Origin: Pagrus major
Lineage: Eukaryota; Chordata; Actinopteri; Spariformes; Sparidae
NCBI RefSeq assembly: GCF_040436345.1
Contig: NC_133236.1
Coordinates: 17,811,466 to 17,875,465 of the forward strand
Reading direction: 5' to 3'
Length of the DNA stretch: 64,000 bases
Under the pieces are notes generated by a model. That model worked only from the letters and a program-made list of their open reading frames with translations, was not told the origin of the DNA and did not search any database. This document shows positions 9,001 to 56,530 of this stretch, in pieces (the first letter of the stretch is position 1; every line of letters starts with the position of its first letter). A program made the translations under genes and the position numbers.

Positions 9001-12000
9001 GATTTGAAAAAGTGTCCGTACAGAGGGGTGCCAGCACGCTCCAAACGGCCCGAAACACGCTCCTAAACACCCCCTGGAGGAAGGATGTTGAAAAGTTGAC
9101 ATTGACACTTAGTCAAATTTCACCTTCCCATCCATCCCATTCACTTTGCAGGCCTGCCTCCAACCCCGACCCAAGATTTGAAAAAGTGTCCGTACAGAGG
9201 GGTGCCAGCACGCTCCAAACGGCCCGAAACACGCTCCTAAACACCCCCTGGAGGAAGGATGTTGAAAAGTTGACATTGACACTTAGTCAAATTTCACCTG
9301 TATGTTTCACCTTCCCATCCGTCCCATTCACTTTGCAGGCCTGCCTCCAACCCTGACCCAAGATTTGAAAAAGTGTCCGTACAGAGGGGTGCCAGCACGC
9401 TCCAAACGGCCCGAAACACGCTCCTAAACATGCCCTGGAGGAAGGATGTTGAAAAGTTGACATTGACACTTAGTCAAATTTCACCTTCCCATCCGTCCCA
9501 TTCACTTTGCAGGCCTGCCTCCAACCCTGACCCAAGATTTGAAAAAGTGTCCGTACAGAGGGGTGCCAGCACGCTCCAAACGGCCCGAAACACGCTCCTA
9601 AACATGCCCTGGAGGAAGGATGTTGAAAAGTTGACATTGACACTTAGTCAAATTTCACCTTCCCATCCATCCCATTCACTTTGCAGGCCTGCCTCCAACC
9701 CTGACCCAAGATTTGAAAAAGTGTCCGTACAGAGGGGTGCCAGCACGCTCCAAACGGCCCGAAACACGCTCCTAAACACCCCCTGGAGGAAGGATGTTGA
9801 AAAGTTGACATTGACACTTAGTCAAATTTCACCTTCCCATCCATCCCATTCACTTTGCAGGCCTGCCTCCAACCCTGACCCAAGATTTGAAAAAGTGTCC
9901 GTACAGAGGGGTGCCAGCACGCTCCAAACGGCCCGAAACACGCTCCTAAACACCCCCTGGAGGAAGGATGTTGAAAAGTTGACATTGACACTTAGTCAAA
10001 TTTCACCTTCCCATCCATCCCATTCACTTTGCAGCCTCCAACCCTGACCCAAGATTTGAAAAAGTGTCCGTACAGAGGGGTGCCAGCACGCTCCAAACGG
10101 CCCGAAACACGCTCCTAAACATGCCCTGGAGGAAGGATGTTGAAAAGTTGACATTGACACTTAGTCAAATTTCACCTTCCCATCCATCCCATTCACTTTG
10201 CAGGCCTGCCTCCAACCCTGACCCAAGATTTGAAAAAGTGTCCGTACAGAGGGGTGCCAGCACGCTCCAAACGGCCCGAAACACGCTCCTAAACACCCCC
10301 TGGAGGAAGGATGTTGAAAAGTTGACATTGACACTTAGTCAAATTTCACCTTCCCATCCATCCCATTCACTTTGCAGCCTCCAACCCTGACCCAAGATTT
10401 GAAAAAGTGTCCGTACAGAGGGGTGCCAGCACGCTCCAAACGGCCCGAAACACGCTCCTAAACATGCCCTGGAGGAAGGATGTTGAAAAGTTGACATTGA
10501 CACTTAGTCAAATTTCACCTTCCCATCCATCCCATTCACTTTGCAGGCCTGCCTCCAACCCTGACCCAAGATTTGAAAAAGTGTCCGTACAGAGGGGTGC
10601 CAGCACGCTCCAAACGGCCCGAAACACGCTCCTAAACACCCCCTGGAGGAAGGATGTTGAAAAGTTGACATTGACACTTAGTCAAATTTCACCTGTATGT
10701 TTCACCTTCCCATCCGTCCCATTCACTTTGCAGGCCTGCCTCCAACCCTGACCCAAGATTTGAAAAAGTGTCCGTACAGAGGGGTGCCAGCACGCTCCAA
10801 ACGGCCCGAAACACGCTCCTAAACACCCCCTGGAGGAAGGATGTTGAAAAGTTGACATTGACACTTAGTCAAATTTCACCTGTATGTTTCACCTTCCCAT
10901 CCGTCCCATTCACTTTGCAGGCCTGCCTCCAACCCTGACCCAAGATTTGAAAAAGTGTCCGTACAGAGGGGTGCCAGCACGCTCCAAACGGCCCGAAACA
11001 CGCTCCTAAACATGCCCTGGAGGAAGGATGTTGAAAAGTTGACATTGACACTTAGTCAAATTTCACCTTCCCATCCGTCCCATTCACTTTGCAGGCCTGC
11101 CTCCAACCCTGACCCAAGATTTGAAAAAGTGTCCGTACAGAGGGGTGCCAGCACGCTCCAAACGGCCCGAAACACGCTCCTAAACATGCCCTGGAGGAAG
11201 GATGTTGAAAAGTTGACATTGACACTTAGTCAAATTTCACCTTCCCATCCATCCCATTCACTTTGCAGGCCTGCCTCCAACCCTGACCCAAGATTTGAAA
11301 AAGTGTCCGTACAGAGGGGTGCCAGCACGCTCCAAACGGCCCGAAACACGCTCCTAAACACCCCCTGGAGGAAGGATGTTGAAAAGTTGACATTGACACT
11401 TAGTCAAATTTCACCTTCCCATCCATCCCATTCACTTTGCAGGCCTGCCTCCAACCCTGACCCAAGATTTGAAAAAGTGTCCGTACAGAGGGGTGCCAGC
11501 ACGCTCCAAACGGCCCGAAACACGCTCCTAAACACCCCCTGGAGGAAGGATGTTGAAAAGTTGACATTGACACTTAGTCAAATTTCACCTTCCCATCCAT
11601 CCCATTCACTTTGCAGCCTCCAACCCTGACCCAAGATTTGAAAAAGTGTCCGTACAGAGGGGTGCCAGCACGCTCCAAACGGCCCGAAACACGCTCCTAA
11701 ACATGCCCTGGAGGAAGGATGTTGAAAAGTTGACATTGACACTTAGTCAAATTTCACCTTCCCATCCATCCCATTCACTTTGCAGGCCTGCCTCCAACCC
11801 TGACCCAAGATTTGAAAAAGTGTCCGTACAGAGGGGTGCCAGCACGCTCCAAACGGCCCGAAACACGCTCCTAAACACCCCCTGGAGGAAGGATGTTGAA
11901 AAGTTGACATTGACACTTAGTCAAATTTCACCTTCCCATCCATCCCATTCACTTTGCAGCCTCCAACCCTGACCCAAGATTTGAAAAAGTGTCCGTACAG

Positions 12001-15000
12001 AGGGGTGCCAGCACGCTCCAAACGGCCCGAAACACGCTCCTAAACATGCCCTGGAGGAAGGATGTTGAAAAGTTGACATTGACACTTAGTCAAATTTCAC
12101 CTTCCCATCCATCCCATTCACTTTGCAGGCCTGCCTCCAACCCTGACCCAAGATTTGAAAAAGTGTCCGTACAGAGGGGTGCCAGCACGCTCCAAACGGC
12201 CCGAAACACGCTCCTAAACACCCCCTGGAGGAAGGATGTTGAAAAGTTGACATTGACACTTAGTCAAATTTCACCTGTATGTTTCACCTTCCCATCCGTC
12301 CCATTCACTTTGCAGGCCTGCCTCCAACCCTGACCCAAGATTTGAAAAAGTGTCCGTACAGAGGGGTGCCAGCACGCTCCAAACGGCCCGAAACACGCTC
12401 CTAAACATGCCCTGGAGGAAGGATGTTGAAAAGTTGACATTGACACTTAGTCAAATTTCACCTTCCCATCCATCCCATTCACTTTGCAGGCCTGCCTCCA
12501 ACCCTGACCCAAGATTTGAAAAAGTGTCCGTACAGAGGGGTGCCAGCACGCTCCAAACGGCCCGAAACATGCTCCTAAACATGCCCTGGAGGAAGGATGT
12601 TGAAAAGTTGACATTGACACTTAGTCAAATTTCACCTTCCCATCCATCCCATTCACTTTGCAGGCCTGCCTCCAACCCCGACCCAAGATTTGAAAAAGTG
12701 TCCGTACAGAGGGGTGCCAGCACGCTCCAAACGGCCCGAAACACGCTCCTAAACACCCCCTGGAGGAAGGATGTTGAAAAGTTGACATTGACACTTAGTC
12801 AAATTTCACCTGTATGTTTCACCTTCCCATCCGTCCCATTCACTTTGCAGGCCTGCCTCCAACCCTGACCCAAGATTTGAAAAAGTGTCCGTACAGAGGG
12901 GTGCCAGCACGCTCCAAACGGCCCGAAACACGCTCCTAAACATGCCCTGGAGGAAGGATGTTGAAAAGTTGACATTGACACTTAGTCAAATTTCACCTTC
13001 CCATCCATCCCATTCACTTTGCAGGCCTGCCTCCAACCCTGACCCAAGATTTGAAAAAGTGTCCGTACAGAGGGGTGCCAGCACGCTCCAAACGGCCCGA
13101 AACACGCTCCTAAACACCCCCTGGAGGAAGGATGTTGAAAAGTTGACATTGACACTTAGTCAAATTTCACCTTCCCATCCATCCCATTCACTTTGCAGCC
13201 TCCAACCCTGACCCAAGATTTGAAAAAGTGTCCGTACAGAGGGGTGCCAGCACGCTCCAAACGGCCCGAAACACGCTCCTAAACATGCCCTGGAGGAAGG
13301 ATGTTGAAAAGTTGACATTGACACTTAGTCAAATTTCACCTTCCCATCCATCCCATTCACTTTGCAGGCCTGCCTCCAACCCTGACCCAAGATTTGAAAA
13401 AGTGTCCGTACAGAGGGGTGCCAGCACGCTCCAAACGGCCCGAAACACGCTCCTAAACACCCCCTGGAGGAAGGATGTTGAAAAGTTGACATTGACACTT
13501 AGTCAAATTTCACCTGTATGTTTCACCTTCCCATCCGTCCCATTCACTTTGCAGGCCTGCCTCCAACCCTGACCCAAGATTTGAAAAAGTGTCCGTACAG
13601 AGGGGTGCCAGCACGCTCCAAACGGCCCGAAACACGCTCCTAAACATGCCCTGGAGGAAGGATGTTGAAAAGTTGACATTGACACTTAGTCAAATTTCAC
13701 CTTCCCATCCATCCCATTCACTTTGCAGGCCTGCCTCCAACCCTGACCCAAGATTTGAAAAAGTGTCCGTACAGAGGGGTGCCAGCACGCTCCAAACGGC
13801 CCGAAACATGCTCCTAAACATGCCCTGGAGGAAGGATGTTGAAAAGTTGACATTGACACTTAGTCAAATTTCACCTTCCCATCCATCCCATTCACTTTGC
13901 AGGCCTGCCTCCAACCCCGACCCAAGATTTGAAAAAGTGTCCGTACAGAGGGGTGCCAGCACGCTCCAAACGGCCCGAAACACGCTCCTAAACACCCCCT
14001 GGAGGAAGGATGTTGAAAAGTTGACATTGACACTTAGTCAAATTTCACCTGTATGTTTCACCTTCCCATCCGTCCCATTCACTTTGCAGGCCTGCCTCCA
14101 ACCCTGACCCAAGATTTGAAAAAGTGTCCGTACAGAGGGGTGCCAGCACGCTCCAAACGGCCCGAAACACGCTCCTAAACATGCCCTGGAGGAAGGATGT
14201 TGAAAAGTTGACATTGACACTTAGTCAAATTTCACCTTCCCATCCATCCCATTCACTTTGCAGGCCTGCCTCCAACCCTGACCCAAGATTTGAAAAAGTG
14301 TCCGTACAGAGGGGTGCCAGCACGCTCCAAACGGCCCGAAACACGCTCCTAAACACCCCCTGGAGGAAGGATGTTGAAAAGTTGACATTGACACTTAGTC
14401 AAATTTCACCTGTATGTTTCACCTTCCCATCCGTCCCATTCACTTTGCAGGCCTGCCTCCAACCCTGACCCAAGATTTGAAAAAGTGTCCGTACAGAGGG
14501 GTGCCAGCACGCTCCAAACGGCCCGAAACACGCTCCTAAACATGCCCTGGAGGAAGGATGTTGAAAAGTTGACATTGACACTTAGTCAAATTTCACCTTC
14601 CCATCCATCCCATTCACTTTGCAGGCCTGCCTCCAACCCTGACCCAAGATTTGAAAAAGTTTCCGTACAGAGGGGTGCCAGCACGCTCCAAACGGCCCGA
14701 AACATGCTCCTAAACATGCCCTGGAGGAAGGATGTTGAAAAGTTGACATTGACACTTCGTCAAATTTCACCTTCCCATCCATCCCATTCACTTTGCAGCC
14801 TCCAACCCTGACCCAAGATTTGAAAAAGTGTCCGTACAGAGGGGTGCCAGCACGCTCCAAACGGCCCGAAACACGCTCCTAAACATGCCCTGGAGGAAGG
14901 ATGTTGAAAAGTTGACATTGACACTTAGTCAAATTTCACCTTCCCATCCATCCCATTCACTTTGCAGGCCTGCCTCCAACCCTGACCCAAGATTTGAAAA

Positions 15001-15838
15001 AGTGTCACGAAACGGCCCGAAACACGCTCCTAAACATGCCCTGGAGGAAGGATGTTGAAAAGTTGACATTGACACTTAGTCAAATTTCACCTTCCCATCC
15101 ATCCCATTCACTTTGCAGCCTCCAACCCTGACCCAAGATTTGAAAAAGTGTCCGTACAGAGGGGTGCCAGCACGCTCCAAACGGCCCGAAACATGCTCCT
15201 AAACATGCCCTGGAGGAAGGATGTTGAAAAGTTGACATTGACACTTAGTCAAATTTCACCTTCCCATCCATCCCATTCACTTTGCAGCCTCCAACCCTGA
15301 CCCAAGATTTGAAAAAGTGTCCGTACAGAGGGGTGCCAGCACGCTCCAAACGGCCCGAAACACGCTCCTAAACATGCCCTGGAGGAAGGATGTTGAAAAG
15401 TTGACATTGACAGTCAAATTTCACCTGTATGTTTCACCTTCCCATCCATCCCATTCACTTTGCAGGCCTGCCTCCAACCCTGACCCAAGATTTGAAAAAG
15501 TGTCCGTACAGAGGGGTGCCAGCACGCTCCAAACGGCCCGAAACACGCTCCTAAACATGCCCTGGAGGAAGGATGTTGAAAAGTTGACATTGACACTTAG
15601 TCAAATTTCACCTTCCCATCCATCCCATTCACTTTGCAGGCCTGCCTCCAACCCTGACCCAAGATTTGAAAAAGTGTCCGTACAGAGGGGCGCCAGCACG
15701 CTCCAAACGGCCCGAAACACGCTCCTAAACACCCCCTGGAGGAAGGATGTTGAAAAGTTGACATTGACACTTAGTCAAATTTCACCTGTATGTTTCACCT
15801 TCCCATCCTTCCCATTCACTTTGCAAGCCTGCCTCTAA
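1..15838 (+). repeat. Tandem satellite array, main homogeneous block
   Basis: About 90 head-to-tail monomers, each beginning GATTTGAAAAAGTGTCCGTA and ending in a CCTCCAACCCTGACCCAA-type segment. Three length classes recur: 169 bp (TTTGCAGCCTCC junction), 174 bp (5 bp GCCTG added at that junction) and 187 bp (a further 13 bp, TGTATGTTTCACC-like, in the second half). A second dimorphism, AACATGCCC versus AACACCCCC near monomer base 70, often alternates and gives 343 bp dimers (174 + 169), for example between 7635 and 8664. Neighbouring copies differ by only a few bases, which implies recent homogenisation. The array continues past the left edge of the window. I do not recognise the family. The 174 bp unit is exactly 58 codons, so long but spurious open frames arise. 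Confidence 0.97.
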
Positions 15839-18006
15839 CCAAACCCTCACCCCAGATCCGAAAAAGTGTCCGTACAGAGAGGTGCCAGCACGCTCCAAAC
15901 GGCCCGAAACACGCTCCTAAACACCCCCTGGAGGAACAATTGAAAAATTTTGCCCCCCCTGACAGTCAGATTTCACCTCTGATCCTTCCCATTCACTTTG
16001 CAAGCCTGCCTCTAACCAAACCCTGACCCCAGATCCGAAAAAGTGTCCGTACAGAGGGGTGCCAGCACGCTCCAAACGGCCCGAAACATGCTCCTAAACA
16101 TGCCCTGGAGGAAGGATGTTGAAAAGTTGACATTGACACTTAGTCAAATTTCACCTTCCCATCCATCCCATTCACTTTGCAGGCCTGCCTCCAACCCCGA
16201 CCCAAGATTTGAAAAAGTGTCCGTACAGAGGGGTGCCAGCACGCTCCAAACGGCCCGAAACACGCTCCTAAACACCCCCTGGAGGAAGGATGTTGAAAAG
16301 TTGACATTGACACTTAGTCAAATTTCACCTGTATGTTTCACCTTCCCATCCGTCCCATTCACTTTGCAGGCCTGCCTCCAACCCTGACCCAAGATTTGAA
16401 AAAGTGTCCGTACAGAGGGGTGCCAGCACGCTCCAAACGGCCCGAAACACGCTCCTAAACATGCCCTGGAGGAAGGATGTTGAAAAGTTGACATTGACAC
16501 TTAGTCAAATTTCACCTTCCCATCCATCCCATTCACTTTGCAGGCCTGCCTCCAACCCTGACCCAAGATTTGAAAAAGTTTCCGTACAGAGGGGTGCCAG
16601 CACGCTCCAAACGGCCCGAAACATGCTCCTAAACATGCCCTGGAGGAAGGATGTTGAAAAGTTGACATTGACACTTCGTCAAATTTCACCTTCCCATCCA
16701 TCCCATTCACTTTGCAGCCTCCAACCCTGACCCAAGATTTGAAAAAGTGTCCGTACAGAGGGGTGCCAGCACGCTCCAAACGGCCCGAAACACGCTCCTA
16801 AACATGCCCTGGAGGAAGGATGTTGAAAAGTTGACATTGACACTTAGTCAAATTTCACCTTCCCATCCATCCCATTCACTTTGCAGGCCTGCCTCCAACC
16901 CTGACCCAAGATTTGAAAAAGTGTCACGAAACGGCCCGAAACACGCTCCTAAACATGCCCTGGAGGAAGGATGTTGAAAAGTTGACATTGACACTTAGTC
17001 AAATTTCACCTTCCCATCCATCCCATTCACTTTGCAGCCTCCAACCCTGACCCAAGATTTGAAAAAGTGTCCGTACAGAGGGGTGCCAGCACGCTCCAAA
17101 CGGCCCGAAACATGCTCCTAAACATGCCCTGGAGGAAGGATGTTGAAAAGTTGACATTGACACTTAGTCAAATTTCACCTTCCCATCCATCCCATTCACT
17201 TTGCAGCCTCCAACCCTGACCCAAGATTTGAAAAAGTGTCCGTACAGAGGGGTGCCAGCACGCTCCAAACGGCCCGAAACACGCTCCTAAACATGCCCTG
17301 GAGGAAGGATGTTGAAAAGTTGACATTGACAGTCAAATTTCACCTGTATGTTTCACCTTCCCATCCATCCCATTCACTTTGCAGGCCTGCCTCCAACCCT
17401 GACCCAAGATTTGAAAAAGTGTCCGTACAGAGGGGTGCCAGCACGCTCCAAACGGCCCGAAACACGCTCCTAAACATGCCCTGGAGGAAGGATGTTGAAA
17501 AGTTGACATTGACACTTAGTCAAATTTCACCTTCCCATCCATCCCATTCACTTTGCAGGCCTGCCTCCAACCCTGACCCAAGATTTGAAAAAGTGTCCGT
17601 ACAGAGGGGCGCCAGCACGCTCCAAACGGCCCGAAACACGCTCCTAAACACCCCCTGGAGGAAGGATGTTGAAAAGTTGACATTGACACTTAGTCAAATT
17701 TCACCTGTATGTTTCACCTTCCCATCCTTCCCATTCACTTTGCAAGCCTGCCTCTAACCAAACCCTCACCCCAGATCCGAAAAAGTGTCCGTACAGAGAG
17801 GTGCCAGCACGCTCCAAACGGCCCGAAACACGCTCCTAAACACCCCCTGGAGGAACAATTGAAAAATTTTGCCCCCCCTGACAGTCAGATTTCACCTCTG
17901 ATCCTTCCCATTCACTTTGCAAGCCTGCCTCTAACCAAACCCTGACCCCAGATCCGAAAAAGTGTCCGTACAGAGGGGTGCCAGCACGCTCCAAACGGCC
18001 CGAAAC
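14290..18006. repeat. Direct duplication of a ~1.8 kb satellite block, offset 1919 bp
   Basis: The block from about 14290 to 16087 is repeated at about 16209 to 18006. Private variants recur exactly 1919 bp apart: AAAGTTTCC (14655-14663 region and 16574-16582 region), CACTTCGTC (near 14755 and 16674), the truncated GTGTCACGAAACGG junction (near 15003 and 16922) and GGGGCGCCAGC (near 15687 and 17606). The left breakpoint lies between 14124 and 14298, because 16043 and 14124 already differ. The right breakpoint is at about 16087/18006, where the copies diverge. This is a unit of unequal exchange much larger than the monomer. Confidence 0.85.
15839..16042 (+). repeat. Divergent (B-type) satellite monomer embedded in the main array
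   Basis: This monomer has AGATCCGAAAAAGTGTCCGT in place of AGATTTGAAAAAGTGTCCGT. It also has GGAGGAACAATTGAAAAATTTTG in place of the GGAAGGATGTTGAAAAGTTG part, CTCTGATCCTTCCC, and GCAAGCCTGCCTCTAACCAAACC. It matches the border monomers beyond 17760 rather than its direct neighbours. It was probably carried inward by the 1.8 kb block duplication described separately. Confidence 0.85.
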
Positions 18007-18520
18007 ACGCTCCTAAACACCCCCTGGTGGAACAATTGAAAAATTTTACCCCTGACACTTAGTCACATTTCACCTCTGATCCTTCCCATTCACTTTGCAA
18101 GCCTGCCTCTAACCAAACCCTCACCCCATCAACCCTGACCCCAGATTCGAAAAAAGTGTCCGTACAGAGGGGTGCCAGCACGCTCCAAACGGCCCGAAAC
18201 ACGCTCCTAAACACCCCCTGGAGGAACAATTGAAAAATTTTGCCCCCCCTGACAGTCAGATTTCACCTCTGATCCTTCCCATTCACTTTGCAAGCCTGCC
18301 TCTAACCAAACCCTGACCCCAGATCCGAAAAAGTGTCCGTACAGAGGGGTGCCAGCACGCTCCAAACGGCCCGAAACACGCTCCTAAACACCCCCTGGTG
18401 GAACAATTGAAAAATTTTACCCCTGACACTTAGTCACATTTCACCTCTGATCCTTCCCATTCACTTTGCAAGCCTGCCTCTAACCAAACCCTGACCCTAG
18501 ATCCGAAAAAATTCACCTTT
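17758..18520 (+). repeat. B-type satellite monomers at the array border
   Basis: Monomer starts (AGATCCG or AGATTCG) fall at about 17773, 17950, 18143, 18321 and 18499, giving spacings of 177, 193, 178 and 178 bp. The 193 bp unit contains an extra CCTCACCCCATCAACC segment. Two subtypes alternate: GGAGGAACAATTG with six or more C residues, and GGTGGAACAATTG with ACCCCTGACACTTAG. The block is more divergent than the main array, as expected of a satellite edge where homogenisation is weak. Confidence 0.88.
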
Positions 18521-24070: not shown

Positions 24071-35392
<11,322 letters not shown>

Positions 35393-43300: not shown

Positions 43301-45133
43301 ATTCAGAGTTTGAATTTCTTCTCCAAATCTACATAGTGCTCCTTTAACTTTCTGCCAGAAACAGTAAGCCATCACCTGTCTGTATGATGTTCAAATTGTT
43401 AAAGATAAGTTCTCTGCCGAACTAACCACACTGAAGCTGGAGACACTGAACTCAGCAGCACAGGGATGCATGTTGCAGGCCTGCTGGCTTGCTGGTCTCT
43501 GCAGGCGCTGGGTAATGCAGTAAGTCTCTTCCACCACACGGGGGTTCACTGGGTCCTGAACCCAACACTCCACGCTGCGATACTGCATGCCTCCATTGCA
43601 GGCGGCAGAGCACTCGCCATAGACACCAGTTTTGTACAGGTATGTGAGCGTCTCCCTTGGGTGAGGAGCGACAGCGACAGGAGCAGCAGAGTGTACGGAA
43701 TTGGTGTCTTCATCCAAGCCCATAAAGTCTCCATGGATCAGTATCTGGAGAGAGACAAATGACTTTTAATTTGAAAGGTGGTGGTGTATAAAAGTCTTAA
43801 GGAGTGGATGGTCTGATCCTTTTGGTTGACTTGATTGCTGTACTGAAAATTGGCTACTTATTAAGAAAAATAGACAAAGTTTTTCTGTATAATACAGTAC
43901 AATGTCGAGCTCTTGAACTTGGTCATCTTAGTCTTAGTTTTGTTCCCACCCTGCAGATGCCGTCCACACAGATATCAGAGCGGCCCACATAACATTGAGT
44001 CCCATCCACCACTGCAGGTCTGTGTCGGTAGAAGAAGTTCTCTCCTCTTGGGACACAGTTCAACTCACATGGATTGGATCCTACAGAACAGACACAGACA
44101 TTAAATATAAACACATGATATATAGACCTAGACCTATACAGACCTGGCTCAAATAGAATCAGCACTTGTTTTATTATGGTTTGACTGCTATGTCCAAGAA
44201 TTACGTTAAAGTACTGTTCCACCTACACACAGACTATATGGATGTACAGTATATTAAAGCTCTTATACCTCCATAATAAGGAACCCATGCGTGATGTTTG
44301 TTCTGAAAGTCCATCCTGTCAAAGTGGGAGCACTGCTCCTCCCTGAAGTCCCTGGATCCAACTGGACATTCCTGCAGTGATACAATTTTGTATTATTGGC
44401 ATATTTTAGGGTGCATTAGTGCAGGTCGAGGGTGGATGTAATATATAGAAAGGCAAAAAAATTAGATTACTTGTGTATTACAGGTTCGATAGGATTTGGA
44501 AGATCCTAAGCAGTTATGTCCTCCGTCTGTCCTGCAGGAGAGAAGAAATAATGCTATCGAACACAGTGCCCCTTTAATTGATGAGACTATCGTCCCGTCC
44601 TATCACCCTGCGTCTAAATGTCCTACCTTGAAGTAATACATTTTCTGGTCCTCATTGCGACTCCTGTGCCACATGTGCGACTGCAGGGCCCATAGGCTCC
44701 AAACTCTCCCCAGTAGTCATGGGCTGGCCGTGTCAGCTGAAAAACAAAGTACACAAAACTCCTACTTGCTCAGCCGCTGGAACACATAGTACTCTCACAC
44801 GTCATATCACAGCCCACCAACCACCAAACCACCAACACACACTAAGAGCATGCTAGAGATGCAGAAATAGAAGCTGGAACATTTAACCTCAAACCCTAAA
44901 TGTTGCATAATATAAACCAGCAGCATCACTGCTGGCACATGTGAACACTCTGCCTTTTTTTATGTTGAGATTTTGGACATGCTGTACTTTACAGTACATG
45001 CAATTTTCACCCATAGTAAAGTATTTTTTCTACATTCAAATGGCACAATGTTATTAATATTGTTGAAAATGAGACTCACAGTAAACGTCGGTCCAGATAG
45101 CAGGAGGAGACCCAGGACTTGCAGGATGTTCAT
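40313..45133 (-). CDS. papln: Papilin-like secreted matrix protein, reduced form, 12 coding exons
   Basis: Coding exons: 45080-45133, 44627-44736, 44471-44531, 44269-44371, 43950-44080, 43427-43744, 42421-42597, 42187-42337, 42024-42104, 41441-41579, 41238-41325, 40313-40588. All are in frame, giving 1689 nt and 562 residues. Order: signal peptide (residues 1-18, MNILQVLGLLLLSG); TSP1 with CSRTCGTG (about 27-75); ADAMTS-type Cys-rich segment with CELNCVPRGENFFYRHRPAV (76-153); three more TSP1 repeats (CSAACNGG, CSVTCGEG, CTRSCGGG; about 195-368); two papilin Cys cassettes (YGCCPDG, YGCCLDG); and a Kunitz domain (about 488-540; GPCDTWKVRFYYD, FWYGSCQGNGNNF). It resembles human papilin most closely. 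It lacks the rest of the Cys-rich/spacer region and the Ig and PLAC domains of the roughly 1278-residue human protein. It could be a reduced teleost paralogue. Confidence 0.88.
40870..41200 (-). mobile_element. Non-autonomous element (GCACTATGTAG family), partial copy in papilin intron 11
   Basis: Ends with CTACATAGTGCATCTTTAA (41182-41200). The body (AACAAGCTGTTCTCAGAGGA, CTAGAAAGGTGGCAGGGTCC, ATATAAACACAGTAAAACAG) is the reverse complement of the element at 42984-43347. The opposite terminus is not recognisable. Confidence 0.8.
42700..42880. repeat. Interspersed repeat fragment, ACTTGAGTAAAAGT type
   Basis: Dense in AGTAAAAGT, TACTTTGGTAAAAGTAAAAGT and AAATGTACTTT motifs followed by CCTCTCCACTACATTTTGGAGGC. 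From memory this is a common fish repeat. Located in papilin intron 6. Confidence 0.5.
42984..43347 (+). mobile_element. Non-autonomous element with GCACTATGTAG terminal inverted repeats, complete copy
   Basis: Left end TTAAAGATGCACTATGTAG and right end CTACATAGTGCTCCTTTAA are inverted repeats with two mismatches over 19 bp. The element is 364 bp with no coding capacity. It lies in papilin intron 6. Related copies occur at 40870-41200, 46701-46894 and 60270-60510. Confidence 0.85.
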
Positions 45134-48144: not shown

Positions 48145-48616
48145 CTGGAAGAAAAGGGAATCATTTAGCTAGTAGCCAATGAGTGTAAAGTTCAAAAGGG
48201 CAGAAAGAATTCAAATATTGAGAGAAAAGGCTGAGAAATGTCAGAAACGCAGAGCAGCACCGACACCTTTCTCCCTCTCAGCTGGTAATGAGTCTAAGCT
48301 CCTTGCAGGGGGTGAAACATGCAGTAATCTCCTCCACTTGTGCACCTGTGTGTACAGTGTGTGTGTGTAGGTATATGTGTTTATGTGCCCAGGTGTCCTC
48401 TCACTGACATCTGCTATCCTGTAATCCATTTAGGGCAGCTATCCTGAGCGACACCCTCCCCTGTCCAGACCATTGCTGGCTCGGCTGAGCGGCAGGCGGG
48501 ACATCAGATTACGTGGTTTCGTCGCTCCGCCCGGCCTATTCACTGCCAGACAGATTAACCCCATCCTCGTGAACTCGTCTGTGTTTGGCTTTGACACTCA
48601 CATGCACACACTCCTA
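48145..48616. other. Upstream region of the coiled-coil gene
   Basis: Contains a short TG-rich run (48353-48370) and a GC-rich stretch at 48450-48560 that could be a promoter or first exon. No coding exon is supported. Confidence 0.35.
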
Positions 48617-48880
48617 CACAGCAAATTCTGCATACCCAAATTAACACTGTCAGAGTTGATTTCAACACTTTTAAAGTGTCTATATGGGTCCACACCACAA
48701 AGTGTTAATTTAACTCTTTTTGGAGTGTTGGTACTTTAACACTAGTTAAGTGTTATTGATTGACTCTATATGGAGTAGAATAATTAACACTTCTTAACAC
48801 TAACCAGTGTTACTTTTTTTTACTCTTTGGAGTAGTGTTAAATTTCAACTCTCACTCTCTGGATTGTTTTAACTCCGAAA
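48617..48880. repeat. Left subterminal repeat region of the transposon
   Basis: Many short motifs in both orientations: TTAACACT, AGTGTTAA, AACACTT, AAGTGTT and AACTCTTTTTGGAGTG-like blocks, including AACACTTTTAAAGTGTC near 48663. Such repeats are the TnpA-type binding regions of CACTA elements; that role is inference here. Confidence 0.75.
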
Positions 48881-48936
48881 ATATTTTCAAAATAAAGTGT
48901 GCTAAAAATAATGAAGCCGTTTTTAGTCAAAACACG

Positions 48937-48942
48937 TTTATT
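48937..48942 (-). terminator. Polyadenylation signal for the transposase transcript
   Basis: Minus-strand AATAAA about 50 nt beyond the transposase stop codon and inside the element. Confidence 0.6.
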
Positions 48943-48990
48943 TCAAGACGCGCACCACATGAACATCTCATTTACATTTAAAAATGTTTT

Positions 48991-51435
48991 TTAAAACAGA
49001 TAACAGTATGGAACAATGTATGCTTTGTCACCGTCATTAGAGCACTGTTTATCAAAGGGTCTGAAGTAAGTGAGCTGATCAATGCATATCACCCCATACT
49101 CATCATTTTTCTCCTCTATACAATATGCATGATAATGTTCATCAAAGTACAAGGTATTAACTGTACAACCTACTATGAAAGCAGACTGTTCATGTACAAC
49201 AATAGAGCATATTTTCTTGAACACAGGTAGATCATGGGAAGTTTCAGTGGCTATAAATAAACCAATCTGGTACTCTGTGCCATTATGTTTAACCCACTTT
49301 GTAGTTGACACATTTGAACATGAATCTAATTTGAGTAACTGACACAGTATTTCTCCACATTCCATGCTATCAATTGTTTTAATTTTTAAAGGACCAACTT
49401 CAAACCTTCTAAAACTAAAATTTTCATAGTAAAAAGCCAAATGACGTTGGTGTTGTTTTACTAGAGATTTGGTAAGATTTTTGAAATTCTTCACAGACTT
49501 TTTAAAAAAATAATGCTTTGCCTCAAAACGCATGCACCACATATGGATTAAAGGGCCTATTTTTTTAATACATCTTGGATAGTGGATCATTAAGTGGTGC
49601 TTGGGGATCAAATTCTTATCGGGGAATAAGGTTTTGAACATGTTATGGTGGTCGCAAATCAAATGTTTTAGGTAACATATCATGCCATCAGTAAGGATTG
49701 GGGAGAATACTATGTTCACAATTTGTAATAAAAGAAGCACAAAGTTCCAATAGCTATTGTCCCTTTCAACCACATCACCAAAGATGAGAGGGGTATTGCG
49801 GAGAACACACAATGACTGGATGGCATTTAAACCCAAGTGCTTGCTTTTATCATCAATTTTTAATCCACTTGGTTTGTTCTTACGTTCTGTGAAACCATAA
49901 TTAAAACTCTGTATCCTGTATAAAAGTGTGTTCAAAGAAATGTAACCATTTTTTATCAAGTACTGAAAAAACAACTTCAGCTCATATTGTACAACACCCT
50001 CTAACAAATCATGCATAATATCAACAGCAAAATTCTCAGTGCTATGAAAATACTCCAATGTATTGAGGACACAAGACTTTTTAACACCATAAACTGAAGG
50101 TAGAGCAGGTTCTTCACTTAGTGCATTACAGTGCTCAATGTGAAGCGCTTTGAAGCGCAGAACAAGTCCAGGATTGTCCTCATTGAATACAGACTGAATT
50201 TCTTCCTTGGTTGTCAGACAAAACCTACACCAGTGTGTTGCACTAAAAGACTCAACAAACCCTAGCAAGCTATTCAAAGCAAGATTATCTCCAGTCACCT
50301 GAATTATAGAACCAAACAATGAGTCTTGAATACATGGAATTTGGATTCCCTTTGTCTCTAAAATTTTTAAATCATCAATTAGGGGCTTTAAAATTGCATC
50401 AAAACCGTATTTCTTCAAATCTTCCGTATAAAATAGAGCTGCAAGATGCACATTCATTAATACAGAGTTCAATTTTGGTGGGAGATTTTTTAAAGTAAAA
50501 TAAATACACCCCAGTTTGTGAACACCTTTCTTGGAACCTAATGGGTTGGCTGTTTCAAAGTCGTCATAATAGAGCAAAATTTGTAGAGCATACCTGTTTT
50601 GAGAAAAGAGAGGATGGTTCTGGAAATATGACCCATCATTTATGTCCTTATATATTCCCTTTTGACTATGTTTATCTTGAAAAAAACATTCCCTTATCTC
50701 ATCATTTTTGAAAATGGACTTTAGTGTGCCTAAGATAGGTACATACATGAACTTGTCTGTCACAGGGATCTGGCTATAGACACCTGAAGTTCTACTTCTA
50801 CGCGCATCCAGTCTCACACCAAGGACAAATTCTTTGGGCTCAACTATTTCCCATTTTTCATTATAATATTTTTGTCTCTTTGTCTCCGTGTTAAATGTTG
50901 AAAAAGGATTGTCTAACTGATTTAAAGTATGCTCTATTTTATTATAAATTTCTGACTTTTTGGTTTCAGGAGAAAATGTTTGGAGAACAGCTTCTCGTGC
51001 TTGACTTTGAACATCACTGACCACTTCCTCCATTGAACAAACTATTGTTTGGACAGTGCTTTCAGAGAGACCACTGGCTTGTAAATGTGCCACAATGGAG
51101 CCACACATGCTAGCAAGAGGTTTCTGTGTGACAACAGGAGGGACTTGCGACATGGATGCAGAGGTTGTTGGCTGATCACTTAAAAATCCCACCTCAGAAT
51201 GTATCTGTGATGCCACTTCCTGGGGTGTATTGATCTGTTCATCACACGAGAGCTTATGTACATTGTTTAGATGCTTTCTTAAGCCACTATACGTACAAAA
51301 AGATGAAGCACACCCTTGCTCTCCACATTTTAAACGCAAGTTCTTGGCTGGATATAGTCCATGGTGAAACTTCAAATGCTTACAAAGAACTGAACAAGTT
51401 TGGTGGTGCGTTTTGCAAACAAAACATGTGAACAT
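48991..51435 (-). CDS. EnSpm/CACTA-like transposase with N-terminal C2H2 zinc fingers (814 residues)
   Basis: Single uninterrupted frame. Residues 4-25 (CFVC then HLKFHH) and 37-60 (CGEQGC then HLNNVH) look like two C2H2 zinc fingers for DNA binding. Next comes a Ser/Thr-rich linker to about 110 and then the catalytic region. Notable motifs are GDNLALNSLLG (about 383-393), CRFC (403-406), DIMHDLLEGVV (472-482), KHHLMIHYPR (612-621) and MRFEAKH (635-641). The last three resemble the corresponding motifs of CACTA-type transposases, where acidic residues form a DDE site. Asp383, Asp472 or 475, and Glu638 are candidates. An acceptor-like TTTTGAGTGCAG lies just before the ATG. The product would cut and join element ends in the nucleus. 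There are no stops or frameshifts. Confidence 0.85.
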   Translation of the reverse strand: MFTCFVCKTHHQTCSVLCKHLKFHHGLYPAKNLRLKCGEQGCASSFCTYSGLRKHLNNVHKLSCDEQINTPQEVASQIHSEVGFLSDQPTTSASMSQVPPVVTQKPLASMCGSIVAHLQASGLSESTVQTIVCSMEEVVSDVQSQAREAVLQTFSPETKKSEIYNKIEHTLNQLDNPFSTFNTETKRQKYYNEKWEIVEPKEFVLGVRLDARRSRTSGVYSQIPVTDKFMYVPILGTLKSIFKNDEIRECFFQDKHSQKGIYKDINDGSYFQNHPLFSQNRYALQILLYYDDFETANPLGSKKGVHKLGCIYFTLKNLPPKLNSVLMNVHLAALFYTEDLKKYGFDAILKPLIDDLKILETKGIQIPCIQDSLFGSIIQVTGDNLALNSLLGFVESFSATHWCRFCLTTKEEIQSVFNEDNPGLVLRFKALHIEHCNALSEEPALPSVYGVKKSCVLNTLEYFHSTENFAVDIMHDLLEGVVQYELKLFFQYLIKNGYISLNTLLYRIQSFNYGFTERKNKPSGLKIDDKSKHLGLNAIQSLCVLRNTPLIFGDVVERDNSYWNFVLLLLQIVNIVFSPILTDGMICYLKHLICDHHNMFKTLFPDKNLIPKHHLMIHYPRCIKKIGPLIHMWCMRFEAKHYFFKKSVKNFKNLTKSLVKQHQRHLAFYYENFSFRRFEVGPLKIKTIDSMECGEILCQLLKLDSCSNVSTTKWVKHNGTEYQIGLFIATETSHDLPVFKKICSIVVHEQSAFIVGCTVNTLYFDEHYHAYCIEEKNDEYGVICIDQLTYFRPFDKQCSNDGDKAYIVPYCYLF

Positions 51436-51476
51436 TTTTTAGGCAAATCTGCACTCAAAATATGAGTTGTGGCCTT

Positions 51477-54201
51477 TCAACACTCACGCAATAGTCGTGC
51501 TCTCAGCTCCTTGACTCGCGGGGTTTCCTTTGCTTTTCCAACATCAATATTGTACACCGTGGTCTGAATGAAGGTGTAGAAGCTGGTGAGCGCTTCATCG
51601 TAAGAGAGGCTGAAGACGTAGTGAGCTTTGAATAGCTCATCAAAAGCAGCTACCGTTGTCTGAGCATTGCTTGGGATCGGTTTCTGGTCCACAATAATGA
51701 AGAACCTCTGTGTTTTCTTCTTTTGCTCACCGATGCAGAGGAGGAAAGGCTGTCTTGTATCCACTTTCTCCAGGAATGTGGTGAGGCTTGCACCCTCCTG
51801 TAGTTTGAATGACAAAACATCAAGAATTAGTCTTACAGTCCTATATTAACTTGCAAACAAACTTATTTCACACATCTGCTAGCTAACAGAAAGTGCTTTT
51901 GGTCGTACAACATATCTGAAGGTACATACTTTGAGAAATCTTACAAGATGGTGGGCTGCCTGTGCTGAGCTGATCTTGGCTGTTCTTTTATGGCCTCTTG
52001 ATGTAGGGGGCAGGAGATGCAACAACAGGAGGAGAGCTGAAATATGACTATCCCAGCCTTGGGAAAAAAGTAGAGAATTAATTAATAAATTACTTCTTGC
52101 TTAGTGTGCATGTTATTTATTCAAAAATATACAATCAAAAGATATTAATATTTACCGAAGTCATTCTCTGCTTCAGGGTCCAAGGCTGCAAGAAGTTCCT
52201 CAACATACTGATTGTGGGGAAGACTCTGGCATTCTTTGATGACTTTTTGCTTGAAAAATGAAGGCCACTTTGCTAGGAATTTCCCAGATACTTCATCTCC
52301 AAACATCATGGAAAAATCTTGGTCGATCTGTAAAACAGAAACACAATGTACATAGTACATGTCAAAACAAGATTGCATCTCATTTTGAGGGATTTGGCTT
52401 TGAAATAAAATAAAATACCATGCGACAATCTATATACTTACCAATCCAGGGACATCAAGGAAACGAGGGAAAACATCCAAGACTGAAGATGTTGCATCAT
52501 GGTCATGAACAAGCTTCTGTCTATGATCAAAGGTGGCCCTCATCTTTTCTTTAACCACAGAATGATCTGTAGAGTATCTGATGACAGAGAGAGCCTCGCT
52601 ACACTCTTCAGCAAAGAGCTGTTGACCAGTTAACAGTGATTCTCGATAGGTTGTTGGACTGTCCTGCAAATCAGGCCTGGAAAGCCTGTTTGATCCATCG
52701 AAGCTGTTGCGTTGGACTGTTTTGAGTCTCCAAGCAAGGTAGCCAGTGTTGGCCTCTGGATCATAGTAATGTTCCTGTTCACATAAGCACAGACATGTAC
52801 ACACACTTACACATCTGACATCAACGCAACCAAACACTAATCAAATATTAAGCAATACTAAGTTCTACAAAAACACAGATTTGGTCTTCAAAGATACTCT
52901 AAAACTTACATATCCATTTTTTGAGTACGGATCTTGCAGATATGGAAAGAGGGTCACAATTCCAAGTGCATAGGTGGTCCGCACACTCGTGGGTGGAATT
53001 CTCCTTTTAAAAGAAAAAATATGTTACATTTACATCCAATATAAGCTCACAATCATTGATCATTTCTAAGACTTCTTACCCATATGATTCAGTCATATCT
53101 GCGATCAAAATGTTGACCATCTGTCTACGGGTTGAATCCGACAGCATTTTCATTTTGTTATATTCTTTGAAGATTTCTTCTCCCTTTGGATTTGATCTCA
53201 GGGCCGCTTCAACCTTCTGCAAAGACAATTTTGAAATATCAGTAGCTTCTGTAAAATTCATTTTAGATTGACTTTTAACAATTACCTGGTACGAGGTGCA
53301 TGATAATAGTTTAAGTGCTAGTAATGTAGTCTTGATAATCTTCAAATGTAATATACAGTTCAAAATGTGATGTTTCATTGTTTCACCTGTCTTGCTTCAT
53401 CACGGTCCAGGTCACGCAGGCCCCTTTTCCTGTTCTTAGTAGATGGCAGAATGATAGTCGAATCTGAAGAGACAGAAGAAGCTGGTGATCCTGGTGTGTC
53501 TGGTCTTGACACAGGTGTTCCTGGCAATGGTACCGGTGACACTGATAGGTCTGACAGAACTGAGGATTGCATTTCCTCATCCACGAGACATATGTCGAGA
53601 TCTAAAAATGTAAAAAAAGAAAAGGAACATTTCCATATAATGATTAATGAGAAGTATTGAAAATGTCTTATCTAAAATATATCTAAAATTAAATGAAGTA
53701 AAATAATATTTCAGGTCAGGATACTTAAAATAAGGTCAGAGTTTAATACACTTTTTGGAAAATGCAAGAAACTGCGTTAAGAACATATTCAAAACCATTT
53801 CTAAAATAAGCTCTCATTGATAATCATCCATTTGGATAACCTTACTTGATACTGGGTACTGAATGCATCCAATCTTGAAACTTTGAATCCCAGACTTTAT
53901 CAGTTCATCAAACGCATCTGCATCGACCTCGGTACCAGATGTATCGGTCAAACTGAGGACTCCTTCATCCAACTGAGCCTGCAGGCTAAATTTGTCTGTG
54001 ACTAGGAGAATACAAAGAAAAATAACAATGAGCTATAACAAACTGTTTGGATTTTACCTTTACTAAGTGATTACTTTGTTGAGTTTAAAATATATATGGA
54101 TACAGACCAGCTTGAAGAAACTGTAAGAAATCAAAATTTTCCTCCATTTGTGGAACTTTGATGTACTTTTGGACTCCTCTATATTCAACTTTGGCCAGCA
54201 T
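51477..54201 (-). CDS. Second transposon gene: PB1-like domain protein, 9 coding exons, 549 residues
   Basis: Coding exons: 54108-54201, 53846-54001, 53387-53601, 53080-53216, 52910-53003, 52442-52774, 52156-52327, 51930-52057, 51477-51797. All have GT-AG junctions in frame, giving 1650 nt. Residues 1-80 look like a PB1 domain: basic first strand AKVEYRGVQKYIKVP, a helix, then the acidic turn LTDTSGTEVDADAFDELI. A Ser/Pro-rich linker follows (about 88-150). The rest is a conserved-looking globular region (GRIPPTSVRTTYALGIVTLF, EHYYDPEANTGYLAWRLKTV, FGDEVSGKFLAKWPSFF, CIGEQKKKTQRFFIIVDQKP, FKAHYVFSLSYDEALTSFY). I recall similar fish proteins annotated as SAMD3-like. It lies 42 bp upstream of the transposase, on the same strand, inside the element. 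Function is unknown; an accessory DNA-binding or regulatory role like TnpA is possible. Confidence 0.8.
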
Positions 54202-55147
54202 TTTCTGTAAGATATGTATAAACAAATCAACATGCACATTTCTATGGCACATTTAAGAGCCATTTAATAGTAGTCAGTGGAAACTAATGTCATGCAACTT
54301 CTGCATATTAACCATCTTACCACAAGAGAAGTCAGGCGATGACATCAATGCATCTGATTTGGCAGGAACCTTGAACACACTAATATTTTTGTTATGAATA
54401 TGAGATCACGATTGTTAAACACTAGTGCTGTATTTTGATATATTACATAAATGCCTATGCATCTGAGACCTCATCCTTCATAACCAAATCACTTCAGCTC
54501 CATTGTGAATGAGAGCGTTGACCTCATTAAGCTGTTTTACATCTGAACTGACAATGTTAATGGGACGGATCAATACTGTCCCATGTTGATTCAAAACGGG
54601 ATGCGCTAACGTCGTGTAAATTAACAATGTAGATTTCATCCCCAGTTTTAACAATCTGCAAACTGTTTCCCGGCATAAGCAAGCACGGAGTTGCACGATG
54701 CTGCCCGCCCGAACAAGTCCACATATAACGATACGAGCAAGACAGATATAAAATTAACCTGTGGTTATTTTCACAAGTTGCTGCCGATTGTCCCGGCGAT
54801 TTTTTAATGAACAAAGGGCACGCTAGTTAGCTTACCTGGCTAGTTAACGAGTCAACGCTAGCTAATGCCAAGCAAAGCCTTCATCCGAAATACTAACAAA
54901 TTAGCATGGTGTTGCTTATTTTATTAAACAACTCGAAAAGAAAAAAACCCCTGCAAAGTTGCAGACTCATCATTTCCATCAAATGTAGCATCGTGGCGAA
55001 CCAAGATGACATTAACATTACAGTAACGTACATTTGTCAACACAACTTGCGGTGGTGTGGTCACAACTACTTTACCATGAAACAAAAAAATGACCAAAAG
55101 AAATTATGCATACCAAACTCATAATATTTTTAATTTAGGCTACTTAC

Positions 55148-55260
55148 CGAACAACGCACAGGTTAAGATGAGCACCGAAATCGCGGTCGCGGCTTGGAAA
55201 CAGACAGACACGGCTCCTCCGTCGGTCACGGTGTAGATAATGGAGGCGGGGTCACGGTGA
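55148..55260 (-). other. Probable first non-coding exon and promoter region of the transposon
   Basis: On the minus strand, ...CCTGTGCGTTGTTCG ends at 55148 and is followed by a strong donor GTAAGTAG. The segment 55148-55260 is GC-rich and CpG-rich compared with the flanks, and lies just inside the right subterminal repeats, where an EnSpm-type promoter is expected. It would splice to the 54204 acceptor (ATCTTACAG), three bases before the start codon of the PB1-like gene. Confidence 0.5.
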
Positions 55261-55496
55261 CTTAACACTTAAAGTGTCAAAGTCACGTTCAGAGTTGCAG
55301 CGTTGACAAAGCAGTGTTGAAGTCTATTATTATGACACTTAAAGTGTCAATATAAAACAACTCTTTGTTTTTACACTAACTCTATGTCAGTAGAGAGTTG
55401 AATATGAGGAATTTTACTCTATTCAGAGTAAAATTAACTCTACTTTCCTTAAAAAACCGTTGACACCAAAAAATTAACTCTTTAGAATTTGCTGTG
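55261..55496. repeat. Right subterminal repeat region of the transposon
   Basis: Contains two near-palindromes, AACACTTAAAGTGTC (55264-55278) and GACACTTAAAGTGTC (55334-55348). It also has several AACTCT/AGAGTT and TTTTACTCT/AGAGTAAAATT pairs before the 13 bp terminus. The motif set matches the left end. Confidence 0.75.
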
Positions 55497-56530
55497 TACA
55501 CACTATATAATCTCTTATCCATTCTCTCTGATCCCTCTATCTGTGTCCCTTTCACTCAAGGCACAGTCAAACAAATGCAGTTTGAAGGTCAATTAAATGG
55601 TCTACTAAACCAAACACGTAGTGCTGACAACGCTCCGATACAGATACTTACTCTGGTGTCTCAGAGCAGAATGAGTTTTATAAAGAAGACTGTGAGATGG
55701 CACCCTCTGATGGCTCATTTGGTAAATGATGCTCTACTAAGAAACAGATCATCAGCTGAAGTATGGGACCATGTAAAAAGCACACTGTAAATTTTGAAAA
55801 AGTGACTTTAATTCAATGATTTCCCGACCTTTTCAAAGTAAAGTCAATTTTAAAATTTACAGAGTGCTTTTAACCATATTTCATCTTATGATATGCAGCT
55901 CCAGGGTTTTTTAATGAAAAAAATTTAGAGCAAAGGTAAAAGGTAGTTTGTATGTTCTAAGTGTTTTGGAAATTATATGCTTTACATTACCATACCTGTA
56001 CTCTTAACGTAACAAATGTAGTATATACTGCTCAATTTGAGAAAGCTGTACAGATGTTACTTTAAATAAGTGATTTTTATATGATCACTCTTTGCAGAGG
56101 ATAGAAGTTGTGAAATGTAAGATAAAGACACAACACCAAAGCCACCTCATAGAATGAAAGAGTAAGAAAATCCACATGTTTAACAACATGTTGAAGAGCC
56201 GACACAGAGAACGAACCCTTTAAATGGCTGTAAAGATAAGGAGTCGAAATGGTGACGTCACCAACTTCAGTCTCTTATCATATCAAACCAACTTGCTGTG
56301 AGGGCCGGTGTGAAGGAGATTACACTCCTTCTGACAGTGGTGTTAATATTAGCTGTATTAGAGGAGCAGTAAGGAATTATTCATTTGCGACTTAGTTTTG
56401 GATCATTTACTATAAAACCTCCAAAAAGAGCAGATCAATTAGTTAGCTGCAACAAAATCTTATTGTAAAAGTGAAAATATATACTTGGGAAATATGGTAA
56501 GCAGATGAGCTTATGTCTGTTTTCTATGCA

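Follow-up and report, generated by a model that had tools for sequence, protein, structure and literature searches.

Organization of the element

The 64,000-nucleotide stretch of Pagrus major DNA considered here (the window; C22:17811466-17875465 of a searched genome of 785.9 Mb in 25 contigs) contains a 6880-bp transposable element with two genes, both of which are encoded on the minus strand. The first of these, referred to as gene 2, lies near the right end and is composed of nine coding exons separated by eight introns, all of the GT-AG type, which together give an open frame of 549 amino acids (aa). It is followed, near the left end, by a transposase of 814 residues encoded in a single exon. 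The perfect 13-bp terminal inverted repeats (TIRs), the transposase free of stops and the second gene in frame through nine exons that a first-pass annotation had described were all borne out (Table 1), and TA is found on both sides of the element. From these features and the genome searches described below, it is very probable that the element belongs to the CMC clade (CACTA/EnSpm-Mirage-Chapaev) of cut-and-paste DNA transposons, that it prefers TA for insertion, and that it has been active recently and is probably autonomous. The element is ordinary in kind; its unexpected part is the conserved, uncharacterised and tightly coupled second gene.

The ends of the element are rich in the motif AACWCT (Table 1), as compared with a density of 0.38 per 300 bp in the interior of the window copy. 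This motif belongs to a test of three patterns that were picked after the ends had been read. Rfam gave no match at gathering scores within positions 48300-55900.

Table 1. Positions within the window of the element, its genes and its sequence motifs.
Feature	Position	Strand	Remarks
Whole element	48617..55496	.	6880 bp; exact inverted ends, TA flanks, other full copies, L010 empty sites
Left TA target duplication	48615..48616	.	
Left TIR	48617..48629	+	13 bp, CACAGCAAATTCT
Left subterminal repeats	48617..48916	.	13 AACWCT in 300 bp; 200 shuffles: mean 1.05, max 3
AATAAA past transposase stop	48937..48942	-	Candidate shared poly(A) signal
Transposase, single exon	48991..51435	-	814 aa; N-terminal zinc-finger-like region and DDE core; no internal stop
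Codon E638 (MRFEAKH)	49522..49524	-	Proposed catalytic E; invariant 7/7
Codons H614-x3-H618	49582..49596	-	H(3)H motif; invariant 7/7
Codons C403-x2-C406	50218..50229	-	C(2)C motif; invariant 7/7
Codon D383 (GDN)	50287..50289	-	Proposed second catalytic D; invariant 7/7
Codons D291-D292 (YYDDFE)	50560..50565	-	Proposed first catalytic D; invariant 7/7
Gap, gene 2 stop to transposase ATG	51436..51476	-	41 nt; no ATG; possible splice acceptor TGCAG, by eye
Gene 2 coding exon 9	51477..51797	-	With stop
Gene 2 coding exon 8	51930..52057	-	
Gene 2 coding exon 7	52156..52327	-	
Gene 2 coding exon 6	52442..52774	-	
Gene 2 coding exon 5	52910..53003	-	
Gene 2 coding exon 4	53080..53216	-	
Gene 2 coding exon 3	53387..53601	-	
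Gene 2 coding exon 2	53846..54001	-	
Gene 2 coding exon 1	54108..54201	-	ATG
Possible end of 5' noncoding exon	55146..55148	-	Donor G|GTAAGT, near right end; by eye
Right subterminal repeats	55197..55496	.	8 AACWCT in 300 bp; 200 shuffles: mean 1.07, max 5
Right TIR	55484..55496	-	13 bp, AGAATTTGCTGTG; reverse complement of left
Right TA target duplication	55497..55498	.	

Copies, target sites and age

Five copies of the element were found in the genome, each in different flanks. The left 1001 bp gave 19 matches, consisting of four full-length elements at approximately 100% (including that of the window), one match of 447 bp at 99% and 14 that are more diverged or short, while the right 1000 bp gave the same five elements and one further match at 71%. 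The full-length copies measure 6880 bp (window), 6872 bp (L009), 6880 bp (L010) and 6879 bp (L011); the fifth (L012, 4851 bp) has a 2-kb internal deletion that takes out most of the transposase. All four copies outside the window share its exact ends. The three that are full length are 99.64, 99.67 and 99.75% identical to the window copy, and any two of the four are separated by 9-21 substitutions in approximately 6.87 kb; among these four, 10 substitutions are private to the window copy. The earlier proposal that the window copy is young is upheld by these near-identical elements.

The exact 13-mer of the ends occurs 70 times genome-wide, compared with 11 occurrences of a reversed control. 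When these 70 matches were inspected by eye, the only inward-facing pairs within 20 kb were those of the five copies, and thus no miniature copy was found among pairs of the exact 13-mer, diverged-end non-autonomous copies not having been sought further. The remaining 60 occurrences lie outside the ends of the five copies, and solo ends, another repeat or base composition are candidate sources of this excess.

Target duplications of 2 bp flank all five copies, with TA in four and TG in L011, which suggests that TA is a preference of insertion rather than an absolute need. The L010 copy is inserted within a repeat, and its flanks, joined by one TA, were used as an empty-site query. This gave 42 rows (the best 40 of 162 candidates), two of which are the filled site's own flanks and many others of which span the joined junction. 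A single TA is present at the junction in all seven empty loci that were fetched, as the first-pass annotation had anticipated, and this fixes both the boundaries and the 2-bp duplication for the L010 copy.

Two copies, those of the window and L011, have an uninterrupted transposase frame, and their proteins are one residue apart (S96L). The frame of L009 has an 8-bp deletion leading to a stop at codon 343, and that of L010 a one-base insertion leading to a stop at codon 686. All four full-length copies retain an open gene 2 and its complete set of splice sites; in L012 the gene is broken. Autonomy of the element is plausible on this reading of the frames, because both genes are open in two of the four full-length copies (window and L011).

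The transposase and its classification

A genome search with the transposase gave 60 rows (the best 55 of 541 candidates, so that counts drawn from it are lower bounds), and loci for closer study were chosen from the better matches rather than randomly. The window protein was aligned with those of L016, L017, L020, L021, L022 and L023, which are 33-60% identical to it. Across these seven sequences the motifs listed in Table 1 are invariant, and D291/D292, D383 and E638 are proposed, from the order of the motifs, as the catalytic triad.

The CMC(T) clade is defined by catalytic D, D and E residues, with a C(2)C and an H(3-4)H motif between the second D and the last E, and mostly has 5'-CA..TG-3' ends and target-site duplications (TSDs) of 2-5 bp (PMC12730594). 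The element has the D/D/E residues, C(2)C and H(3)H motifs, CACAG..CTGTG ends and a 2-bp TSD, and so conforms to this definition throughout. As for CACTA/EnSpm proper, the TIR has CACAG in place of the CACTA core, the TSD is of 2 rather than 3 bp, and the Transposase_21 family is matched at 16.1 bits against a curated cut-off of 28.6; the subterminal repeats, as judged by motif enrichment in the window copy, are in keeping with that group. Because the CACTA core and the 3-bp TSD are lacking, the element is filed in the CMC clade and named EnSpm-like, not EnSpm proper. Of the CMC/EnSpm-like assignment made earlier, the CMC part stands on motifs invariant in seven of seven proteins, and the narrower EnSpm part is not proved, given the TSD, the ends and the sub-cut-off tnp2 match.

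The remaining Pfam matches of the window protein are also below cut-off (DUF4218, 16.8 bits against 27; zf-AD, 14.3 against 28). Transposase_21 (tnp2) is weakly matched by four of the seven homologues, more than any other Pfam family (best E 0.0064, below cut-off), and Plavaka by one. In the PDB, profile matches are to zinc-finger proteins, mostly in the N-terminal region, and to weak unrelated chains; the zinc-finger chains align to profile positions 2-62. A search for relatives in viral contigs gave 168 pattern matches, none of which was confirmed.

Among known systems, the element shares its CMC clade motifs with teleost CMC-EnSpm (a RepeatMasker/Repbase class); CMC-EnSpm is abundant in zebrafish, where 382,820 copies are masked (PMC4746887). 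The plant CACTA elements En/Spm and Tgmt* resemble it in their short TIRs (13 bp in Tgmt*), subterminal repeats and tnp2 transposase accompanied by a second protein (PMC2613891), and differ from it in having CACTA rather than CACAG ends and a 3-bp TSD rather than 2-bp TA. Gene 2 differs from its proposed plant counterparts in having no accepted Pfam family and in its position upstream of an intronless transposase. SmTRC1 and other animal TRC elements are likewise CACTA relatives with a 2-bp TSD and a tnp2 domain, and SmTRC1 transcripts are alternatively spliced; in contrast, their TIRs start with CCC, that of SmTRC1 is 54 bp long, and the available part of the source describes no conserved second gene (PMC1636069). 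The EnSpm-like fungal ESTA elements have the TA TSD and the CMC(T) motif set, whereas the families described carry a TET/JBP gene, to which gene 2 is unrelated (PMC12730594).

Related elements in the same genome

Ends were sought at seven relatives by a scan that kept pairs starting with CA and having equal 2-bp flanks. The ends are CACAGCAAA in L016 (7003 bp) and L017 (6953 bp), two nearly identical members of a single family, and CACAGTAAAAAA in L020 (7634 bp), with TA on both sides in each case. Since equal flanks were required by the scan, the finding at these three loci is TA itself and not the equality of the flanks. With the flank filter removed, several chance pairs of 9-10 bp also appear at L016 and L017, and the ends of these two therefore rest on likeness to those of the window copy and on subterminal repeats. 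AACWCT is enriched at the left ends of these relatives as well (12 in L016, 12 in L017 and 6 in L020), and the right end of L020 has 8 ACTCT compared with a shuffled mean of 1.38. The scan found no pair at L021 or L013 and only a 9-bp pair at L023. At L022 an exact inverted pair of 14 bp, CACTTCCTGTTTTT, flanked by AA, was found at 57-6390 around the transposase, and these ends would exclude a hAT-like frame upstream. Inspection by eye of L022 shows hAT-like frames at 5813-7896, upstream of gene 2 of this distant CMC element.

Conservation of the second gene

Gene 2 had no accepted match in Pfam or the PDB, whether searched singly or by a profile of its last exon, the listed Pfam rows being far below cut-off. 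No description of a second gene of this kind in fish CMC elements was recognised in the literature searched, Repbase and subscription papers lying outside that search. Nor did any title found there bear on a transposon link of SAMD3, a vertebrate host gene family considered as a possible relative of gene 2. In the genome, a gene-2 search gave 114 rows (the best 79 of 414 candidates). At all 11 of the gene-2 loci opened (L013-L017, L020-L022 and L024-L026), transposase sequence lies downstream on the same strand, limited to the later part of the gene at L013 and to the first ~29 codons at L026. These transposases are as distant as 34-36% identity (L022, where the last gene-2 exon alone was recognised). 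Neither gene was found at L018 or L019, which have only end-like sequence in common with the element.

The two genes are closely spaced. The distance from the gene-2 stop to the transposase start is 7 nt in L022, 9 in L025, 19 in both L016 and L020, 23 in L015, 32 in L024, 41 in the window, 55 in L026 and 191 in L021, and thus falls between 7 and 41 nt in seven of the nine loci measured (L013 and L014, in which the junction is lost, and L017, a near-copy of L016, are left out). The length of the gap modulo 3 varies, and so no fusion protein is kept.

As judged by codon comparison, the last exon of gene 2 is under purifying selection. In all five between-family comparisons of exon 9, silent sites are changed at 73-89% and replacement sites at 17-32%; because silent change is close to or beyond saturation, no exact ratio is given, and L015 and L024 are decayed copies. 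In comparison with L013, silent and replacement change are 0.26 and 0.07 in exon 4, and 0.13 and 0.04 in exon 5.

The first-pass annotation had also pointed to such elements as a source of new host genes, a suggestion that found no support at the loci opened. Two gene-2 matches with no transposase listed nearby, L024 (C12:1258852) and L025 (C18:14344957), proved to be decayed elements with a transposase behind gene 2, and at L026 the ~29 transposase codons are kept behind gene 2 before the frame ends. The loci opened are part of the matches, and domestication may have occurred elsewhere; uncharacterised multi-copy genes in fish might derive from the conserved gene-2 family.

At six places, the last exon of gene 2 lies 9655-9660 bp from an approximately 35% identical transposase on the opposite strand (C6:39571448, which is L026; C10:15672006; C18:12607710; C23:328885; C22:4144291; and C21:491549). 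The arrangement appears to be a composite of nested elements that has been multiplied as a single block. At the C6 place, hAT-like frames lie within gene 2, and the transposase behind it is shortened.

Proposed expression and mechanism

By analogy with plant En/Spm, we infer a single transcription unit that yields both an accessory DNA-binding protein and the transposase. The gaps between the two genes are so short that a separate transposase promoter would need to sit within gene 2. A 5' noncoding exon is suggested by two splice sites identified by eye, a GTAAGT donor past 55148 and an acceptor ahead of 54204. On the coding strand there is no AATAAA from the gene-2 stop to 50943, within the transposase frame, and the next is at 48942, past the transposase stop; ATTAAA variants occur within the transposase frame at 49864, 49569 and 49383. 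A promoter near the right end would direct one pre-mRNA leftwards to the candidate poly(A) signal at ~48940, the full splicing of which would give the 549-aa protein. The transposase would be made from the same transcript, either from an alternatively spliced form, with an upstream exon joined to an acceptor immediately ahead of the transposase ATG, or by re-initiation past the gene-2 stop. Possible acceptors are present in the gap of L016 (CCAG) and of L020 (TTAG), as in that of the window.

The DDE transposase would then cut at the CACAG...CTGTG ends and insert the element at TA. For the gene-2 protein, the most likely role is to bring the two ends together, as TnpA does in plant En/Spm, by binding either the transposase or the AACWCT repeats near the ends. 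Gene 2 is put forward as an animal counterpart of TnpA because transposition requires the plant protein, which binds subterminal repeats, and because such proteins are little alike between elements (PMC2613891). With rather less than even confidence, it may be proposed more generally that vertebrate CMC elements have an ancient and obligatory second gene with no Pfam or PDB match, which serves as the functional counterpart of TnpA while being unrelated to it, and which is tied to the transposase by a tight stop-start arrangement or an alternative splice on one transcript.

Weighing of the alternatives

Several observations weigh against a recently active, autonomous CMC element that is expressed in this way. 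Its copy number is low, L011 is flanked by TG, and frameshifts in L009 and L010 leave only two of the four full copies with an intact transposase frame. Between the near-identical L016 and L017, the ratio of replacement to silent change (dN/dS) in the transposase is 1.16, calculated from eight changes, and no constraint is seen, as would be expected for recent copies free of selection. All Pfam matches of the transposase are sub-threshold, and a PDB search with it, including a profile search, matched no transposase structure. AACWCT has no clear enrichment at the right ends of L016 (2), L017 (3) and L020 (2). Gene 2 shows no known DNA-binding domain in the Pfam and PDB searches, and its role is therefore drawn from position and analogy; it was also missing, at E 0.01, from the more distant L023 (35%). 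The gaps of L015 and L022 have no AG at all, which counts against a splice acceptor there, and those of L021, L024 and L025 contain five, one and one ATG, respectively, which disfavours simple re-initiation at these loci. The steps concerning the transcript and the accessory role derive from sequence and analogy.

The low copy number and the two broken transposases would also be expected if the element were already dead and mobile only with help, the window copy being a young fossil, and residues G111 and H381 of its gene 2 are not found in the other three full copies. Against this stand the two copies in which both genes are open, with transposases one residue apart, and L012, which lacks most of the transposase and is inserted at a separate site, flanked by TA; a dead element is thus considered unlikely. 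Somewhat more credible, if still doubtful, is a separate lineage within the CMC(T) clade that targets TA, akin to the fungal ESTA type and distinct from EnSpm proper. The TA TSD, the CACAG-type ends, the sub-threshold tnp2 match and the one weak Plavaka match among seven homologues are all consistent with such a lineage. However, 2-bp TSDs are reported for animal CACTA relatives too, including SmTRC1, and so the length of the TSD alone does not separate it (PMC1636069).

It could also be argued that gene 2 was captured from the host or is a passenger, and has no part in transposition. No Pfam domain, whether DNA-binding or of another type, is accepted for it, and its eight introns between coding exons, where the transposase frame has none, are what a captured host gene might have. 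Nevertheless, its position before the transposase is kept in 11 of 11 loci, with transposases down to 34-36% identity, and the protein sequence of its last exon is conserved where silent change is close to saturation. So wide a distribution would not be expected of a recent passenger, and this explanation is regarded as improbable. A two-gene CMC element, recently active and probably autonomous, remains the preferred interpretation.

To our knowledge, few active vertebrate CMC transposons are known. In the present family, both genes are open in two copies, another copy is a natural deletion derivative, and the empty sites of one insertion are defined; a direct test of activity, and of whether the second gene is needed, is therefore within reach.

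Other features of the window

Positions 1-18510 of the window are occupied by a tandem array with a unit of ~174 bp, present in about 104 copies to 18114; a 343-bp unit also fits, to 18475. The array retains long open frames, such as one of 340 aa at 6079-7101. Two host exons were recognised on the minus strand, one at 33983-34627 that matches phosphatase 4 regulatory subunit 3 (PP4R3; E 9.7e-72) and one at 43391-43723 that encodes a thrombospondin type 1 domain of the ADAMTS kind (E 5.3e-10).

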